Shown here piece after piece: positions 40,072 through 47,620 of a stretch of 64,000 nt of DNA. The stretch covers positions 1 through 64,000 of the forward strand of contig ONEK01000001.1 in the NCBI GenBank assembly GCA_900316855.1. The letters are read 5' to 3'. How positions within the stretch are numbered: position 1 is the stretch's first letter; the number at the start of each line of letters is the position of its first letter. Origin of the DNA: an uncultured Lachnospiraceae bacterium (GTDB lineage Bacteria > Bacillota > Clostridia > Lachnospirales > Lachnospiraceae). Position numbers and translations under genes: made by a program. The notes below the pieces were generated by a model. The model worked only from the letters and a program-made list of their open reading frames with translations. It had not been told where the DNA came from and did no database searches.

Positions 40072-40491
40072 TCAGGGCTCGACGGAGCGGCTTAAGGGCT
40101 CGTGGCCTGCGTGATCGCAGGCTATGGTGAGCGACGCGTAGGAGCCGTCCGTCTTCACCGTGCACGTGATCTTCCCTCCTGCCGGGCAGACCTTGCCGGC
40201 GTAGGTGGGCTTGGCGGGAATCTCCTTACAGGCTTCCTCAAGCGATGCGTACTCCCCTGCCGCGTAGGCATACAGGATCTCCGAGCGCATGGCATCCCGG
40301 TTGCTGTAGCACACCGCCGCCCGCGCACCCTCGATATACCGCGTGATCATCGGCGCAATGCTACCCGTCAGCGTCACCAGGATGGAAATTGCGATGATCA
40401 GCTCGACGAGGGAGAAACCCTTCTGAGCGGGTTGAGATATTGCAGGCTGTTTGCAAGATTTGGAAGGATCGGGTTTCATATCAGCCATCAT
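40072..40491 (-). CDS. pseudopilin-like protein (type IV pilin signal)
   Basis: Up to 139 aa. QKGFSLVELIIAISIL at about residues 23-38 is a type III prepilin cleavage site and start of the pilin helix (cleavage after Gly24, Phe+1, Glu+5). The C-terminal 70 residues hold four Cys that could form disulfides. No strong ribosome site precedes any of the three possible ATG codons (40491, 40488, 40479), so the start is uncertain. It lies 150 bases behind a second pilin-like gene, with a hairpin terminator between them. Confidence 0.75.
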   Translation of the reverse strand: MMADMKPDPSKSCKQPAISQPAQKGFSLVELIIAISILVTLTGSIAPMITRYIEGARAAVCYSNRDAMRSEILYAYAAGEYASLEEACKEIPAKPTYAGKVCPAGGKITCTVKTDGSYASLTIACDHAGHEPLSRSVEP

Positions 40492-40640: not shown

Positions 40641-41123
40641 TTACTTTGTATCGGCAGGAACCTGAAAGAGTCTGCCATCGCTCGACTTAACAATGTCGTT
40701 ACCATCGGCAACCCATACCTTTACAGCATTGTCCTTGACATTTACTTGTAATTTGATTGACTTGCCTTTGCACGCTTTTGATACCAGAGACAGCTTCTGA
40801 CTTCCAAGCGTCAAAGCCATCTGACCTTCCAACGTTTTCGTAGTTGCATCTTCTTTATCTGCAGTCAGTGTTTCAGGAAGCGTCGCACCATAGTTATATT
40901 TATCGGCAATAGTTAAATTCTCTTCCGTTAATGCAATTTGCGCTGCCTCATAAACGGTATCGAGGGTCTGCATGTCCTTAGCTTCCCTGGACTTCTCGAC
41001 ATACCGAAGGATGTTCGGTGCCAGAAGGCCGGTCAGGATTACGAGGATGGCACTGGCGATAATCAGCTCGATGAGTGAGAAGCCCTTGTCGTTCTTTTTC
41101 TTACGTGTCATGATTGCTTTCAT
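40641..41123 (-). CDS. type IV pilin-like protein
   Basis: 160 aa. A basic leader (MTRKKKNDKG) ends in KGFSLIELIIASAIL, the prepilin cleavage site with Glu at +5. Helix alpha-1 continues with NILRYVEKSREAKDMQTLD. The C-terminal 90 residues form the globular part, ending in a possible beta hairpin (KVWVADGNDIVKSSDGRLF). GGGAGGAACTGG precedes the ATG at 41123; a longer frame has no site. The gene is clearly AT-richer than its neighbours. No pilB, pilC or prepilin peptidase lies in the window. Confidence 0.85.
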   Translation of the reverse strand: MKAIMTRKKKNDKGFSLIELIIASAILVILTGLLAPNILRYVEKSREAKDMQTLDTVYEAAQIALTEENLTIADKYNYGATLPETLTADKEDATTKTLEGQMALTLGSQKLSLVSKACKGKSIKLQVNVKDNAVKVWVADGNDIVKSSDGRLFQVPADTK

Positions 41124-41233
41124 TCCAGTTCCTCCCATTATGGTTTTGGTTTCGGCGCCCACAGCCGTTTCCCTTGTGAACTCCCATTTATTTCCAATCG
41201 GTTTCCTGTGCCGATTGTGTTGCAAGTAATCAT

Positions 41234-41417: not shown

Positions 41418-43823
41418 ATGATTGTTTTTCTTACCAGTGATTTTACGGAACAGGATGGTGCGCAGGCACTTGACAGGGAACCATCCCGGGAGCCCCTCAT
41501 CGAGTCGAACGGGTTCGGTGAGCAGCTGCGCAGGGTGTGGCCGCAGGACCGGGGAGCGAATGTATTATTTGTTGCGAGCAACCCGGACGACTGGGAGCTG
41601 GAGGAGACGGACGCCGCGAAGGTGCGCGCTGCCTTTGCCGCTGCGGGGCTGTCTGTCGCGAGGATGCGCTATCTCGACCACCGCTTCGGAGAGGATATTG
41701 CAGACGGTGCGCGCAAGCTCGTATCCGAGGCGGATGTGGTCTTCCTTGCGGGAGGGCACGGACCGACGGAAAACCGGTTCCTTCTTGAGTGCCGGCTGCG
41801 GGAGTGTCTGCGGGACTTTGACGGGATCGTGATCGGCCTGTCCGCGGGCTCTGTCAACGCGGCAGACATCGCCTATACGCTGCCGGAGCTTCCGGAGGAG
41901 GTGTCAGATCCGGACTATAACCGCTTCCGGGAAGGCCTCGGGCTTACAAGGCTCCAGATCATCCCGCACCGGCAGTATCTAAGGGACAGGAAGATCGCAG
42001 GACAGGACTTCGTAAACGATATCCTGCTGCCGGACAGCCAGGGCAGATGTTTTTCCTTCATCGACGACGGCAGCTATTACCGCATTGAAAACGGTGTCAC
42101 GGAATTTTACGGAAGCGGGGACTGTATTGCCGACGGGAGGATCACACCCCTGAAGCCGGGGCTTGTGTCGCCGGAGACAGCAAGGAGCAGCCACAAGCTG
42201 TGGGATGCCCTTATGAGCGAGGGGTACGGATGCGTTGCGCTCGTGTCGTCAGACCACGGGGAAATCCGCTTCCTGCATCTGGAGGAGAGCTTCCGCAGGG
42301 AGGGCATGACGGACGCGATCCATTCGTTCCCGGATCTCATCCGCTTCATCACGGACCGGTTTGTCGTGGAGGAGGAGAAGCAGACCGTCATCGACGAGCT
42401 GCAGATTTCGAAGATCCGGAAGGAGTATCAGGAGCGCGGAAGCTTCGTCCGGACCACGCACATTGAGACGCCGCACGGCAGATCGGCATTCCAGTACACG
42501 GTTCACGCGATGGATGCGCAGTGCAGCCGGTGGATTGTCACGTTCCGGGAGATCACGAGCGTCCTGGACCACGACTGGATGACGGATGAATATTCGCGGA
42601 CCGGCTTTATCCGCGCGGCGCAGCAGCTGCTGCAGAAAGGCACAGCGGATGAGGAACTCGCGCTCGTCTACTGCAACGTGAAGGGGTTCCGCGCCGTAAA
42701 TGATCTATTTGGCGAGCAGGACGGCGATATCATGATCTTCCGGGAAAGGGATCTTCTCCGGGAGGTGCTGCATCCGCTGCTCCTTGGAAGGAGCGAAGCC
42801 GATCACTATCTGCTCCTTGTCAAGGAAAGCGAGCTCACGCCGCAGAACCTGGAGCGCCTCATGGACCGGTCATATGAGAAGGGGAGCCGCAGACTTCTGT
42901 TTACCGTCCGCTGCGGCATCTACCCGATCCGGACGAAATCGGCGTCGATTGTCAGCATGATCGACCAGGCGAAGATGACGGAGAAGTCCATCCCGGACAA
43001 TTCCGGGCAGAACTACGCCATTTACGACCGGAAGTCGCGCGACCGCTACGTGCAGTCGAGGGTCCTGCTGTCCGATTACAGGATGGGGATCAAAGAGAAG
43101 CAGTTCCTTATCTACTACCAGCCGGTTGTCTCCATGAAGAGCGGGAAGCTTGCGAGTGCGGAGGCGCTCATCCGCTGGCAGCACCCGTCGCTTGGCTTCC
43201 TCTCGCCCGGGGTGTTCATTCCGGTACTGGAGAACGCGGGCCAGATCTCCACCATCGACCGGTACATGATCGACGGCGTGCAGGAGTTCATGCAGGGCAG
43301 GACAGCCCTCGGGAAGCGGATCCTCCCCGCCGCGGTCAATCTCTCACGGCTGGATTTCTATGATCCGGGACTGTTAAGGCATATCGAGGAGAGTGTCGCG
43401 GAGGGATTCCTTACGCCGGAGAACCTGAAGCTGGAGGTCACGGAATCCGCGTACGCGGATCTCGAGAAGGCCGCGTCAGACTTCCTGCACAGCATGCAGG
43501 AACACGGCATACCCATCCTCCTTGATGATTACGGGAGCGGCATGTCATCGCTGTCCGCCATGGAGCAGTTCCCGTTCGATATCGTGAAGCTGGACATGGG
43601 GGTCGTCCGCAGGATCGGCACCGGGAAGCGCTCGGAGGCCCTGCTCCTTGGCACAATCGGCCTCGTCCATGCCATGGGCGGCAACATCGTCGCGGAGGGT
43701 GTCGAGACGAAGGAGCAGTGGGACTTCCTGAAGGATGCCGGCTGCGACATGGTGCAGGGCTATTATAAATACAAGCCCATGCCGGAGGAGGAGTTTGCGA
43801 AGCTGCTGGATGACGGGATGTGA
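41418..43823 (+). CDS. peptidase S51-degenerate GGDEF-EAL fusion protein
   Basis: 801 aa, soluble. Residues 1-250 are a peptidase S51 (dipeptidase E/cyanophycinase) domain: VVFLAGGHGPTENRF, nucleophile-elbow GLSAGSVNA with Ser142, and IIPHRQY with His184. Residues 340-380 look PAS-like. Residues 390-540 are a GGDEF fold whose signature is lost (FGEQDGDIM). Residues 545-801 are an EAL domain with all usual catalytic residues: Glu581 (EALIRW), Asn640, Glu672, Asp702-Asp703 (LDDYGSG), Lys723, Glu759 and Gln779. It is thus predicted to hydrolyse c-di-GMP under control of, or together with, a Ser peptidase-like sensor. The ribosome site is weak. A terminator follows. Confidence 0.85.
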   Translation: MIVFLTSDFTEQDGAQALDREPSREPLIESNGFGEQLRRVWPQDRGANVLFVASNPDDWELEETDAAKVRAAFAAAGLSVARMRYLDHRFGEDIADGARKLVSEADVVFLAGGHGPTENRFLLECRLRECLRDFDGIVIGLSAGSVNAADIAYTLPELPEEVSDPDYNRFREGLGLTRLQIIPHRQYLRDRKIAGQDFVNDILLPDSQGRCFSFIDDGSYYRIENGVTEFYGSGDCIADGRITPLKPGLVSPETARSSHKLWDALMSEGYGCVALVSSDHGEIRFLHLEESFRREGMTDAIHSFPDLIRFITDRFVVEEEKQTVIDELQISKIRKEYQERGSFVRTTHIETPHGRSAFQYTVHAMDAQCSRWIVTFREITSVLDHDWMTDEYSRTGFIRAAQQLLQKGTADEELALVYCNVKGFRAVNDLFGEQDGDIMIFRERDLLREVLHPLLLGRSEADHYLLLVKESELTPQNLERLMDRSYEKGSRRLLFTVRCGIYPIRTKSASIVSMIDQAKMTEKSIPDNSGQNYAIYDRKSRDRYVQSRVLLSDYRMGIKEKQFLIYYQPVVSMKSGKLASAEALIRWQHPSLGFLSPGVFIPVLENAGQISTIDRYMIDGVQEFMQGRTALGKRILPAAVNLSRLDFYDPGLLRHIEESVAEGFLTPENLKLEVTESAYADLEKAASDFLHSMQEHGIPILLDDYGSGMSSLSAMEQFPFDIVKLDMGVVRRIGTGKRSEALLLGTIGLVHAMGGNIVAEGVETKEQWDFLKDAGCDMVQGYYKYKPMPEEEFAKLLDDGM

Positions 43824-43914: not shown

Positions 43915-46323
43915 TCAGTCCATTTTCAGGATAAGCTCCAGTATTCTTCCGGCGGACTGCTCCAGCAGTGCGCGGTTGACGCAGCCCTTGTGCAGTGCCT
44001 CGAGGAGGCGTGCGGGGAAGCCGCAGCCCATCTTGACGTCGCCGCCTGCCTTCACCTCCTTATACTGCTCGCCGAGGTTCCACCAGTCCGTTGTAACGAC
44101 GCCGTCGAAGCCCCATTCCTCGCGCAGGATTCCCGTGAGGAGCCCTTTCGACTCGGAGGCGCGCACACCATTGATGAGGTTGTAGCTCGACATGACGGAC
44201 CACGGGTGCGCTTCCTTCACGATGATCTCGAACTGCTTCAGGTAGATCTCGCGGATGGCGCGCTCGGAGCAGCGGGAGTCGGAGCAGCGGCGGTTCGTTT
44301 CCTTGTTGTTGAGGGCGAAGTGCTTCACACACGCGGCGACATGTTCCGACTGGATGCCCTTTACCATTCCGGCAGCCTGACGGCCTGCGAGGAGCGGATC
44401 TTCGGAGTAGTACTCGAAGTTCCGCCCGCACAGGGGGCTGCGGTGGATGTTGACGGCGGGTGTCAGCCAGACGCCGATATTGTTCTCCTTCACCTCGGCA
44501 GCTCCCGCACGGCCGACGGCATAGGTGACGTCCGGGTCCCACGTGCAGGCAAGGAGTGTCGCGCAGGGGAATGCTGTCGTGTGGACGCCGACCTCCGGCC
44601 TGAGCCTCAGGCCCGCAGGGCCGTCGGCGGTCATGATATTGGGGATGCCGAAGTCCGCGTTGCCTCCCCAGCCGAATGTATTGGCCGAGCCGGTGTTGGG
44701 CTGGCCGGACACAAGCCAGCACAGATCCTCATCGGACAGGCGGGAGAGGAACTCCTCCATCGACGCCTTGCCGTTGTAAACGTCAATGAGCATCGGATGA
44801 TCGGGTTTCTCCTGCCAGGTGTGTCCTTCGCGGTAGCGGACCTCCGGTGACATGCCGTCGCGGTGCGGCAGGGGAGGGAGCAGAGTCTCGCCGGGGTCAT
44901 GCGGCTCCGACTGCGGGAGATTCTCGAATGTTCCGTCTGCGCGCAGGCGGAACTGCAGCTGCGTTGGTGCGAGCTTGCGTGTCAGCCGCTGTGTGATGAC
45001 ATTGTCATCGAGGTGGTAAATGTAGTCCACGGGAGAGGCATCCTCCACGCTCGTTCCGAGGAAGAACGTGTAATCACCCTTCTCCAGCACCCAGGACGAG
45101 TTCTGGATGCGCGCAAGGTCGTCGTAGGAAGCCATGTCCCGGATTGCGATGGAGAGTGCCAGAGTCTGTGTCTCGCCCGGCTGCAGGAGGCGCGTTTTCC
45201 GATAGGCGCCGAGCGAACGCGCGGGCTTTCCGAGAAGTCCCTGCGGTGCCGCGTAGTAGACCTGCACGACCTCCTTCCCGGCATACTCTCCGGTGTTCGT
45301 CACATGAACTGCGAACACGATCCGGTCACCGTCCTGCCGTGCCCTGATATGGGTCAGGCTGAACGTGGTGTAGGACAGGCCGAAGCCGAACGGGTAGTTA
45401 ACCTTCTCCTTCGCACCGGGTATGGTCTCGAAATACCTATAACCGACGTAAATGTCCTCCGTGTAGTCCACGAATTCCGTGGACTGGTGGAAGCCCTCGG
45501 ACGAGGGATAATCCTCGAGCCGCTTTGCGAACGTGTCCGCAAGCCTGCCCGAAGGGGTTCCGTGTCCCATGAGGAGCTCTGCTTCCGCCGTTCCGCCCTC
45601 CATGCCGCCCTGCCAGGCGAGGAGGACCGCAGGGATCTGTGCGTTATTCCGGAACCATTCCGTGTCTACCATGCCGCCGACATTCAGGACAACGATGGTC
45701 CGCGCAAATGCTGCCGTCACCTGGTCCACCATGACCTGCTCCGCTTTGGAGAGGTAGAAGTCGCTGCTCTCGAACAGTTCATTCTGCGCGGCAACACATT
45801 CCTTGTCGTCGTCTTCACCCGGCTCCGGCGAGCCATAGGAGGATTTCCGGTCCCAGGCTTCCCCGGAGAATCGGGAGATGGAGATGACGGCAATGTCCGA
45901 GACGCTGGCTGCCTTCTTCACGAGCTCCTCCGGAAGCTCCGGCTCCGCGATGAGGCCTGGCCTGCCGCCCTTTGCGTACTGGTGCGTCACATAGCTGCGG
46001 TAGAAATCCACCGTGTCCGGAAAGACGGTTACCTCGTCACCAAGCGACGCGAAGCCGTCCGCGAGATTGTGCACGAACGAGACGGTGACATCGCCGGAAC
46101 CGCCGCCTCCCTTTACATAGTCAATGGTTCCCTTGCCGAACAGTGCGATGCGGCTGCCCTGCGGAAGGGGAAGGACATGACCCTCGTTTTTCAGCAGGAC
46201 CATACCCTCCTTCGCTGCGTTCTTCGAAATCTCGATGTGCTGCTTCGACTCCGTCACCCGGCTCCCGCCGCTGCCAAGCGGCAGATTGGGAGTGTAGAGG
46301 GCGCGTGCCCACTTCTTAGCCAT
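43915..46323 (-). CDS. GH3 beta-glucosidase with swapped domain order
   Basis: 802 aa, no signal peptide, so cytoplasmic. The usual C-terminal GH3 domain comes first (KEGMVLLKNEGHVLPLP, then GGGGSGDV), followed by a fibronectin-like domain (YPFGFGLSYTTF, then VTNTGEYAGKEV). The TIM-barrel domain is last: PNIMTADGPAGLRL, TPAVNIHRSPLCGRNFEY, CVKHFALNNKE and the nucleophile Asp746 in VVTTDWW. This permuted layout is known in some clostridial and rumen beta-glucosidases. It should release terminal beta-linked glucose or similar sugars from imported oligosaccharides. AGGAAAGGAG precedes the ATG at 46323. Confidence 0.92.
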   Translation of the reverse strand: MAKKWARALYTPNLPLGSGGSRVTESKQHIEISKNAAKEGMVLLKNEGHVLPLPQGSRIALFGKGTIDYVKGGGGSGDVTVSFVHNLADGFASLGDEVTVFPDTVDFYRSYVTHQYAKGGRPGLIAEPELPEELVKKAASVSDIAVISISRFSGEAWDRKSSYGSPEPGEDDDKECVAAQNELFESSDFYLSKAEQVMVDQVTAAFARTIVVLNVGGMVDTEWFRNNAQIPAVLLAWQGGMEGGTAEAELLMGHGTPSGRLADTFAKRLEDYPSSEGFHQSTEFVDYTEDIYVGYRYFETIPGAKEKVNYPFGFGLSYTTFSLTHIRARQDGDRIVFAVHVTNTGEYAGKEVVQVYYAAPQGLLGKPARSLGAYRKTRLLQPGETQTLALSIAIRDMASYDDLARIQNSSWVLEKGDYTFFLGTSVEDASPVDYIYHLDDNVITQRLTRKLAPTQLQFRLRADGTFENLPQSEPHDPGETLLPPLPHRDGMSPEVRYREGHTWQEKPDHPMLIDVYNGKASMEEFLSRLSDEDLCWLVSGQPNTGSANTFGWGGNADFGIPNIMTADGPAGLRLRPEVGVHTTAFPCATLLACTWDPDVTYAVGRAGAAEVKENNIGVWLTPAVNIHRSPLCGRNFEYYSEDPLLAGRQAAGMVKGIQSEHVAACVKHFALNNKETNRRCSDSRCSERAIREIYLKQFEIIVKEAHPWSVMSSYNLINGVRASESKGLLTGILREEWGFDGVVTTDWWNLGEQYKEVKAGGDVKMGCGFPARLLEALHKGCVNRALLEQSAGRILELILKMD

Positions 46324-46554
46324 AACTGCTCCTTTCCTTTTTACCCTTCTGTAACTCCTGAGTGTGTACCTGAAATACCATGAACCCCGATCGTGTAAGC
46401 CTGCAATGTGCTGACCGGGAAACCTTGTGCTGCACAGCAGCACGAAAGCTTATTCGTGAGCAGGCTGCCGGCGAAATGCTTCCGGAAGCCGGCGCCCGGA
46501 CGTTCTCATTGTAGCATAGGGACATCGCGGGGAAGCCACGGATCCGGAAATATC

Positions 46555-46597: not shown

Positions 46598-47440
46598 TCA
46601 GAGCAGGCTCCGGGAGGACAGGCGCCGGTACAGGGCGCGGCAAAGCTCGATCACAAGGTAAATGATGAGGATGACGGCTGCGACAAGGAGCGCATAGCCC
46701 GCTCTCCAGGCGCTGCCCATCCGCTCCTGCAGCCACTCGAGGGGCGTTCCGGGGACGGGACGGCTGACGAACAGGTAATTGCAGCCGGTTTTCACATCGA
46801 ACAGCCATGTCGGCGGCACTTCGATGAGGAGGTACACGAACGGGTACCAGATGTGCCGGATTGTCGGGTGCACCCTCCCGGATGCAAGGAGCAGCATCGG
46901 ATAGACAGCGAGAACCGTGTGCCACACGAAGCTGTGAATGGACAGGAAATTCCACAGCGGATAGGCGGACCAGTCGGGAAACAGCAGCGCGCAGAATGAG
47001 CCGGGCATCAGGAGGACGACGCCGATTTCACCGAGCGCCTCCCGGAAGCGTGACTGGCCGATAGTCCGGACGATATGACTGCGCGGCGCGGAAAGGTCAG
47101 CACTCGTTGTGACGATGCGGTCCGTTTCCGGCAGGAAGGCGTGCAGGAGGTAGACGAAGATGGAGAAGCTGCACAGGTGAAGCGGCAGGTAGGCAATGCT
47201 CATCCTGTGGATGGACAGGAGAAAGAGGTCCCGCACGAGATTTCCTGCAAGGAGTAAGACGGCGAGGAGCCGCAGTGTCAGTGCCTGGCTGTGCTGCGAC
47301 AGACGTACGAACCACAGACACAGGAGTGCCATCGCAAGGCAGCAGACTGTCAGCGCGGCAAAGTGCTGTGCTGTGAACAGGCCAAAGCCAATCCCCGCGG
47401 GAAGATCAGATCCCTCCAGCCAGAAATATAGCATGGACAT
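46598..47440 (-). CDS. YwaF/TIGR02206-type integral membrane protein
   Basis: 280 aa with about seven membrane helices. The segments YLPLHLCSFSIF and SIHSFVWHTVLAVYPM match the TIGR02206 (YwaF) family, whose function is unknown. The ATG at 47440 has GGAGG eight bases upstream; a TTG two codons earlier is too close to that site. It stands alone between the GH3 and murD genes. Confidence 0.8.
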   Translation of the reverse strand: MSMLYFWLEGSDLPAGIGFGLFTAQHFAALTVCCLAMALLCLWFVRLSQHSQALTLRLLAVLLLAGNLVRDLFLLSIHRMSIAYLPLHLCSFSIFVYLLHAFLPETDRIVTTSADLSAPRSHIVRTIGQSRFREALGEIGVVLLMPGSFCALLFPDWSAYPLWNFLSIHSFVWHTVLAVYPMLLLASGRVHPTIRHIWYPFVYLLIEVPPTWLFDVKTGCNYLFVSRPVPGTPLEWLQERMGSAWRAGYALLVAAVILIIYLVIELCRALYRRLSSRSLL

Positions 47441-47620
47441 CTTCAACGCCTCCGTCCCGGCCGGACTTACGGCCGCAGTTCCACTATATCACAGTCTGAT
47501 GTGACGATTTTCCTGTAAAGGATGCCATTTCACGGTCATTCAGATCTCCGATGCGGATTCATCTTCTACGGCTGCACCGGAGCTTCGCCTAAAATTTCAC
47601 AACGCGAACGCCGCTTAGTG

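Follow-up and report, generated by a model that had tools for sequence, protein, structure and literature searches.

A dipeptidase E-like S51 domain as a candidate input module of a PAS-GGDEF-EAL c-di-GMP phosphodiesterase in Lachnospiraceae

The locus

The window, that is, the whole 64,000-nucleotide stretch of Lachnospiraceae DNA analysed here, holds a gene whose single uninterrupted frame encodes a protein of 801 residues with an S51 domain, a PAS fold, a degenerate GGDEF domain and an EAL domain (Table 1). The full-length AlphaFold model comprises four folded units at a mean pLDDT of 86.6; its pTM of 0.48 makes the placement of the domains relative to each other unreliable, and the linker of residues 252-258 is poorly predicted. 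The four-part layout in one frame, as read in the first-pass annotation, is borne out by Pfam, by the models and by the homologues.

Upstream and divergently oriented lie two small genes for prepilin-like proteins. Type IV pili are frequent c-di-GMP targets; the prepilin-like gene neighbourhood is not conserved at homologous loci. Two further genes follow on the opposite strand. One encodes a glycoside hydrolase of family 3 with a swapped domain order, the GH3_C and Fn3-like domains standing ahead of the GH3 catalytic domain; the other encodes a membrane protein with a Pfam TMEM164 match, a family that takes its name from an animal protein.

Table 1. Features of the phosphodiesterase gene, its neighbours and S51-containing proteins at other loci (positions in the window, or in the locus named)
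Feature	Position	Strand	Basis
S51-PAS-GGDEF (degenerate)-EAL protein, 801 aa	41418..43823	+	Open frame, ATG to TGA; architecture recurs at 33 other loci
S51 (dipeptidase E-like) domain, residues 1-250	41418..42167	+	Pfam 21 bits, relatives 33-45; model; PDB
Ser142, predicted nucleophile, GLSAGS elbow	41841..41843	+	Aligned with PepE Ser120
His184, predicted triad histidine, IIPH	41967..41969	+	Aligned with PepE His157
Asp217, predicted third triad residue, DDGSYY	42066..42068	+	Aligned with PepE Glu192
PAS-fold domain, residues 259-380	42192..42557	+	Model secondary structure; PDB match to PAS-GGDEF-EAL fragments
Degenerate GGDEF domain, residues 384-518	42567..42971	+	Pfam 37.2 bits; first metal Asp = Asn420
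Former GGDEF motif EADHY, residues 460-464	42795..42809	+	Family consensus ESDHF
EAL phosphodiesterase domain, residues 554-787	43077..43778	+	Pfam 206.5 bits; all catalytic positions present
Prepilin-like gene	40072..40491	-	Pfam N_methyl
Prepilin-like gene	40641..41225	-	Pfam N_methyl
Glycoside hydrolase family 3	43915..46443	-
Membrane protein	46598..47446	-	Pfam TMEM164, 125 bits
S51 fused to PfkB sugar kinase, L053	499..2190	-
S51 fused to RsmH/MraW methyltransferase, L074	427..2196	-
Remote S51-like + methyltransferase-like, L092	1447..2997
Remote S51-like + methyltransferase-like, L093	1360..2868
Remote S51-like + methyltransferase-like, L094	354..1778
Remote S51-like + methyltransferase-like, L095	256..1680
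Remote S51-like + methyltransferase-like, L096	185..1633
Remote S51-like + phosphotransferase-like + GNAT-like, L097	1295..3454		By eye, sequence only
Free-standing S51, Lactococcus plasmid, L167	4944..5639
Free-standing S51, Lactococcus plasmid, L168	4914..5663

An S51 fold at the N-terminus

In the window protein the Pfam S51 profile (PF03575) covers residues 63-199 with 21.0 bits, just under the cut-off of 23.9 bits; since this score alone is doubtful, the assignment was tested via relatives and structure. The S51 domains of relatives lie above the cut-off (38.0 bits in L010, 45.4 in the free-standing L057, 39.7 in L074 and 33.1 in L065), and an AlphaFold model of residues 1-251, made with 30 homologues, reaches a mean pLDDT of 93.4. 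All 19 PDB matches of this model at E<=0.001 are S51 proteins, among them Salmonella PepE (6a4r), Xenopus dipeptidase E, cyanophycinase (3en0, 7uqw) and the PepE homologues of Deinococcus and Listeria. The earlier claim of an N-terminal S51 domain, just short of the cut-off in a Pfam search of the window protein itself, is confirmed by the relatives and by the model.

The catalytic triad of E. coli PepE consists of Ser120, His157 and Glu192 (PMC9239234). A profile alignment to this protein (b4021) places the three residues on Ser142, His184 and Asp217 of the window protein; the positions first proposed for the serine elbow and the histidine were correct, and Asp217, the third triad residue, had been overlooked. 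An Asp in third position is also found in MccG and in Streptomyces Orf2 (PMC9239234, PMC11078827). As modelled and aligned, the N-terminal domain has the S51 fold, and its triad is complete and conserved.

The PAS, GGDEF and EAL domains

No match to the Pfam PAS profile was found in the window protein. In the full-length model, however, residues 259-380 form strands and helices in PAS succession. Among PDB structures this model is closest to a fragment of PA0861/RbdA that comprises PAS, GGDEF and EAL (5xgb, E 4e-31), with DosP second.

The GGDEF signature has been lost, as first noted: R-x-GGDEF reads R-S-E-A-D-H-Y in the window protein and R-L-E-S-D-H-F in the family consensus, with D462 kept in 31/31 and His463 in 28/31 fused proteins; in every fused protein Asn420 takes the place of the first metal-binding Asp. 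Both changes make cyclase activity very unlikely. The EAL domain retains all its catalytic residues, again in agreement with the first reading; the nine positions E582, N641, E673, E676, D703, D704, K724, E760 and Q780 show no variation across 31 fused proteins, and they are spaced as in active EAL enzymes, RocR for example. With the EAL residues invariant and the GGDEF catalytic positions consistently altered, the predicted output is c-di-GMP hydrolysis.

Catalytic state of the S51 domain and its possible ligands

The histidine and the aspartate of the triad are present in 34/34 fused S51 domains and the serine in 30/34, while the free-standing S51 domains keep Ser in 26/26, His in 26/26 and Asp in 25/26; the triad is complete in 30 of the 34 fused and 25 of the 26 free-standing domains. 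All four fused proteins with a replaced Ser142 are from Butyrivibrio, with Gly in L006, L012 and L028 and Asn in L011, and the serine has been lost in at least three separate events if their positions in the tree are right. Apart from the serine, the GGH, N147, E161, His and Asp positions are still in place in these four domains. Across the fused proteins, whose S51 domains share a mean identity of about 50%, the pocket positions G112, G113, H114, N147, P156, E157, E161, H184 and D217 are nearly or fully invariant. Faster decay of the S51 domain after the loss of Ser142 was considered and rejected, since the S51 distances are close to normal when set against those of GGDEF-EAL (1.35-1.61 vs 1.20-1.57); some branches of Ser-less sequences looked long on the S51 tree.

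A pocket that is kept, usually with and sometimes without its nucleophile, speaks for ligand sensing, with catalysis as a rule still in place. Judged from these sequences, the S51 domain is probably a ligand-binding, still hydrolytic input domain, and the four Ser-less copies, with their pockets and normal divergence, may be what is expected if ligand binding can suffice. It is important to point out that the serine is kept in most fused proteins and that pure sensing would not require this, which counts against our preferred explanation. Alternatively, the S51 domain could hydrolyse its substrate and the PAS domain could sense the product, an amino acid or a trimmed peptide, such that peptide turnover sets the phosphodiesterase activity. 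The prevalence of complete triads would fit such a relay, as would the C-terminal strands of the S51 domain, which are present and align with the PepE tail, and its constant place immediately ahead of the PAS domain. The four Ser-less copies persist, however, and conservation within the fused proteins is lowest in the PAS domain (38% mean identity), which relatives that lack S51 also keep and which therefore probably has a role of its own; sensing of the product seems to us unlikely, if far from negligible.

The nature of the ligand had first been sought among Asp-containing dipeptides or cyanophycin-like material. In PepE, Asn89 and Arg171 have roles in reading the substrate Asp. The PepE residues Asn89 and Asp135 correspond to His114 and Glu157 in the window protein, both conserved in the subfamily, and the Arg171 region falls into an alignment gap; cyanophycin synthetase above the TIGR02068 cut-off was found in none of 15 genomes (the window's own and 14 with the fusion); and one whole clade of S51, clade II, is without peptidase activity (PMC9239234). 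On these three grounds neither Asp-X nor cyanophycin is indicated, and the proposed substrate is unsupported. A conserved gene neighbourhood was found neither for the fused nor for the free-standing S51 genes, and hence offers no pointer to the ligand.

Distribution and evolution of the fusion

Forty-seven loci came from a scan of 84,980 species genomes, and others from a second search. S51, PAS, GGDEF and EAL domains stand in one frame in 34 proteins, the window's included, chiefly from Butyrivibrio and other Lachnospiraceae. The search for the same architecture in other Clostridia, proposed in the first-pass annotation, accordingly finds it at 33 other loci (Lachnospiraceae/Clostridia contigs, mostly Butyrivibrio), in proteins that are about 40-46% identical to that of the window, whose start methionine aligns with homologue starts in 32/34. 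The PAS-GGDEF-EAL part occurs alone at 14 loci, one of them shortened by a contig end. Within the family 41/299 genomes matched, four with the fusion of about 800 residues (the window's included) and about 30 with a free-standing S51 protein of about 250 residues; the 36 sampled genomes of the same genus held no fusion and in some cases a free-standing S51, and samples at the level of class and phylum yielded matches that were free-standing or remote, but no further fusion.

Mobile elements were considered as a source and rejected: the plasmid matches are free-standing S51 proteins in Lactococcus, and among the phage matches listed, coverage is of the PAS/GGDEF-EAL part only. The Lactococcus relatives reside on 44 plasmids and are annotated as 'peptidase E' or 'Type 1 glutamine amidotransferase-like'.

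The S51 tree comprises 91 domains. One of its branches (one change; support 70, not starred) has all 34 fused domains on one side, beside 41 free-standing ones. This grouping of the fused domains apart from the free-standing ones makes one origin likely, and the fusion is apparently a single lineage kept over deep divergence at low identity. In the PAS-GGDEF-EAL tree, which has some long branches, the S51-less proteins lie among the fused ones with five changes, of which at least four are forced by starred branches. The nesting of these sisters suggests repeated loss of S51, a domain that behaves as an exchangeable input. Read most simply, the trees show a single fusion event and several later losses, on the understanding that a count of changes does not by itself establish direction. 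One S51-less protein, L027, is the starred sister of the fused L001, and its N-terminal stretch RFLGRSEIMEDGK is colinear with the last strands of the S51 profile (efkGeGeiiedgk; 3.3 bits, as good in 2/2000 shuffles), a likely but weakly supported remnant of the S51 C-terminus.

Alternatively, the S51 domain could be a passenger, an independent housekeeping hydrolase or a dimerisation scaffold that happens to be linked to the phosphodiesterase without signalling to it. In the family, unfused S51 proteins of the subfamily outnumber fused ones, the phosphodiesterase also exists without S51, and the same type of domain is joined to unrelated enzymes in Lachnospiraceae, once to a PfkB-like sugar kinase and once to an RsmH/MraW methyltransferase; several Lachnospiraceae, Butyrivibrio among them, have a remoter S51-like domain (Ser elbow GVSAGxMN) joined to a SAM-methyltransferase-like one. 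A mere tether is nevertheless rather improbable, given the apparent maintenance of the fusion as one lineage and the finding that 0/13 genomes with an S51-less phosphodiesterase have an S51 protein of the same subfamily, so that there is no simple need for the hydrolase activity in trans. Split-gene partners of the Rosetta stone type are rejected on the same count, with no adjacency seen, and both halves therefore do not simply work as separate proteins. The remoter S51-like domain was also seen, by eye, in one 720-residue frame (L097), followed by phosphotransferase-like and GNAT-like parts.

An assembly or sequencing error that joined two genes, which the weak Pfam S51 score of the window protein alone and the lack of the fusion in the sampled genomes of the same genus might suggest, has next to no probability, because the frame is uninterrupted at 33 independent loci in independent assemblies, Butyrivibrio isolate genomes among them; the frameshift between two genes that the first-pass annotation had envisaged is refuted by these homologues.

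Proposed mechanism and significance

We propose that the S51 domain is the input module of a cytoplasmic PAS-GGDEF-EAL c-di-GMP phosphodiesterase and that a ligand signal would travel via the PAS to the EAL domain, a reading to which we give a probability of roughly 0.55. The initial idea of S51 as a predicted input to c-di-GMP breakdown is consistent with all the evidence. A small acyl or amide ligand, such as a short peptide or a peptide-like amide and probably not a simple Asp-X, would bind in the S51 pocket and would probably be cut there. The change in the S51 domain would pass via the PAS domain and the invariant junction LDHDWMTDEY to the GGDEF-EAL pair, and the EAL domain would shift between autoinhibited and dimeric active states as reported for RbdA, in a direction that we infer. 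In RbdA the PAS and GGDEF domains keep the EAL domain autoinhibited, and release leads to EAL dimerisation and activity (PMC11372557). Less c-di-GMP would favour leaving the attached state. That an active S51 hydrolase serves as the phosphodiesterase sensor, with c-di-GMP breakdown directly gated when a specific small peptide-like metabolite is bound or cleaved, is a tentative proposition that we hold at somewhat under even odds.

The window's own genome has 14 EAL matches, and the S51 protein is therefore one input of a rich c-di-GMP network. A c-di-GMP-I riboswitch was found neither in the window nor in the genome, where the control likewise gave no match, so that absence from the genome does not follow. 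If the proposal holds true, c-di-GMP enzymes would gain a new class of input, a peptidase domain that resembles an enzyme and has a conserved triad, and peptide metabolism would be linked to the switch between attached and free-living states in Lachnospiraceae such as Butyrivibrio, which are abundant in rumen and gut. Natural variants with an intact S51 domain, with a Ser-less one and without any (L027 and L030, for example) occur in one phosphodiesterase family, and the coupling is therefore directly testable.

Comparison with known systems

PAS, GAF, CACHE, globin, receiver and other domains are the known inputs of c-di-GMP enzymes. The searched literature gave no paper on a combination of S51 and EAL, which public domain databases may list without comment, and peptidase or S51 domains are absent from the main text of a review of c-di-GMP sensory domains (PMC8846402). 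The earlier statement that no S51-EAL signalling protein has been described is compatible with these searches and with that main text. Overall, a known output module is apparently combined with an input domain not described for PAS-GGDEF-EAL phosphodiesterases.

The free-standing S51 proteins of Lachnospiraceae and of Lactococcus plasmids belong to the same subfamily as the window domain and share about 36-45% identity with it, but comprise about 245 residues and are unfused. PepE, of S51 clade I, has the same fold (6a4r, E 4.5e-11) and the same triad positions; the window domain differs from it in its fusion, in the Asp as third triad residue and in the replacement of the two substrate-site residues, at a structural-alignment identity of 17-18%. 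MccG and B. subtilis PepE (clade V) resemble it in their Ser-His-Asp triad, but are free-standing and act on aspartyl-nucleotides or Asp-pNA (PMC9239234). Cyanophycinase CphB (3en0, 7uqw) has the same fold (E 6.6e-9) at 13% identity.

On the output side, DosP of E. coli (PDB 9cmf etc.) shares the N-terminal cytoplasmic sensor, the PAS and GGDEF-EAL domains and the phosphodiesterase output, but senses O2 with a haem-PAS and is without an S51 domain. RbdA of Pseudomonas aeruginosa (PA0861; 5xgb; PMC11372557) has the same PAS-GGDEF-EAL order, with PAS and GGDEF domains that restrain an active EAL domain. It is, however, located in the membrane and has a periplasmic domain, and GTP stimulates its phosphodiesterase by way of an intact GGDEF domain, whereas the window protein combines a soluble S51 input with a GGDEF domain devoid of catalytic residues.
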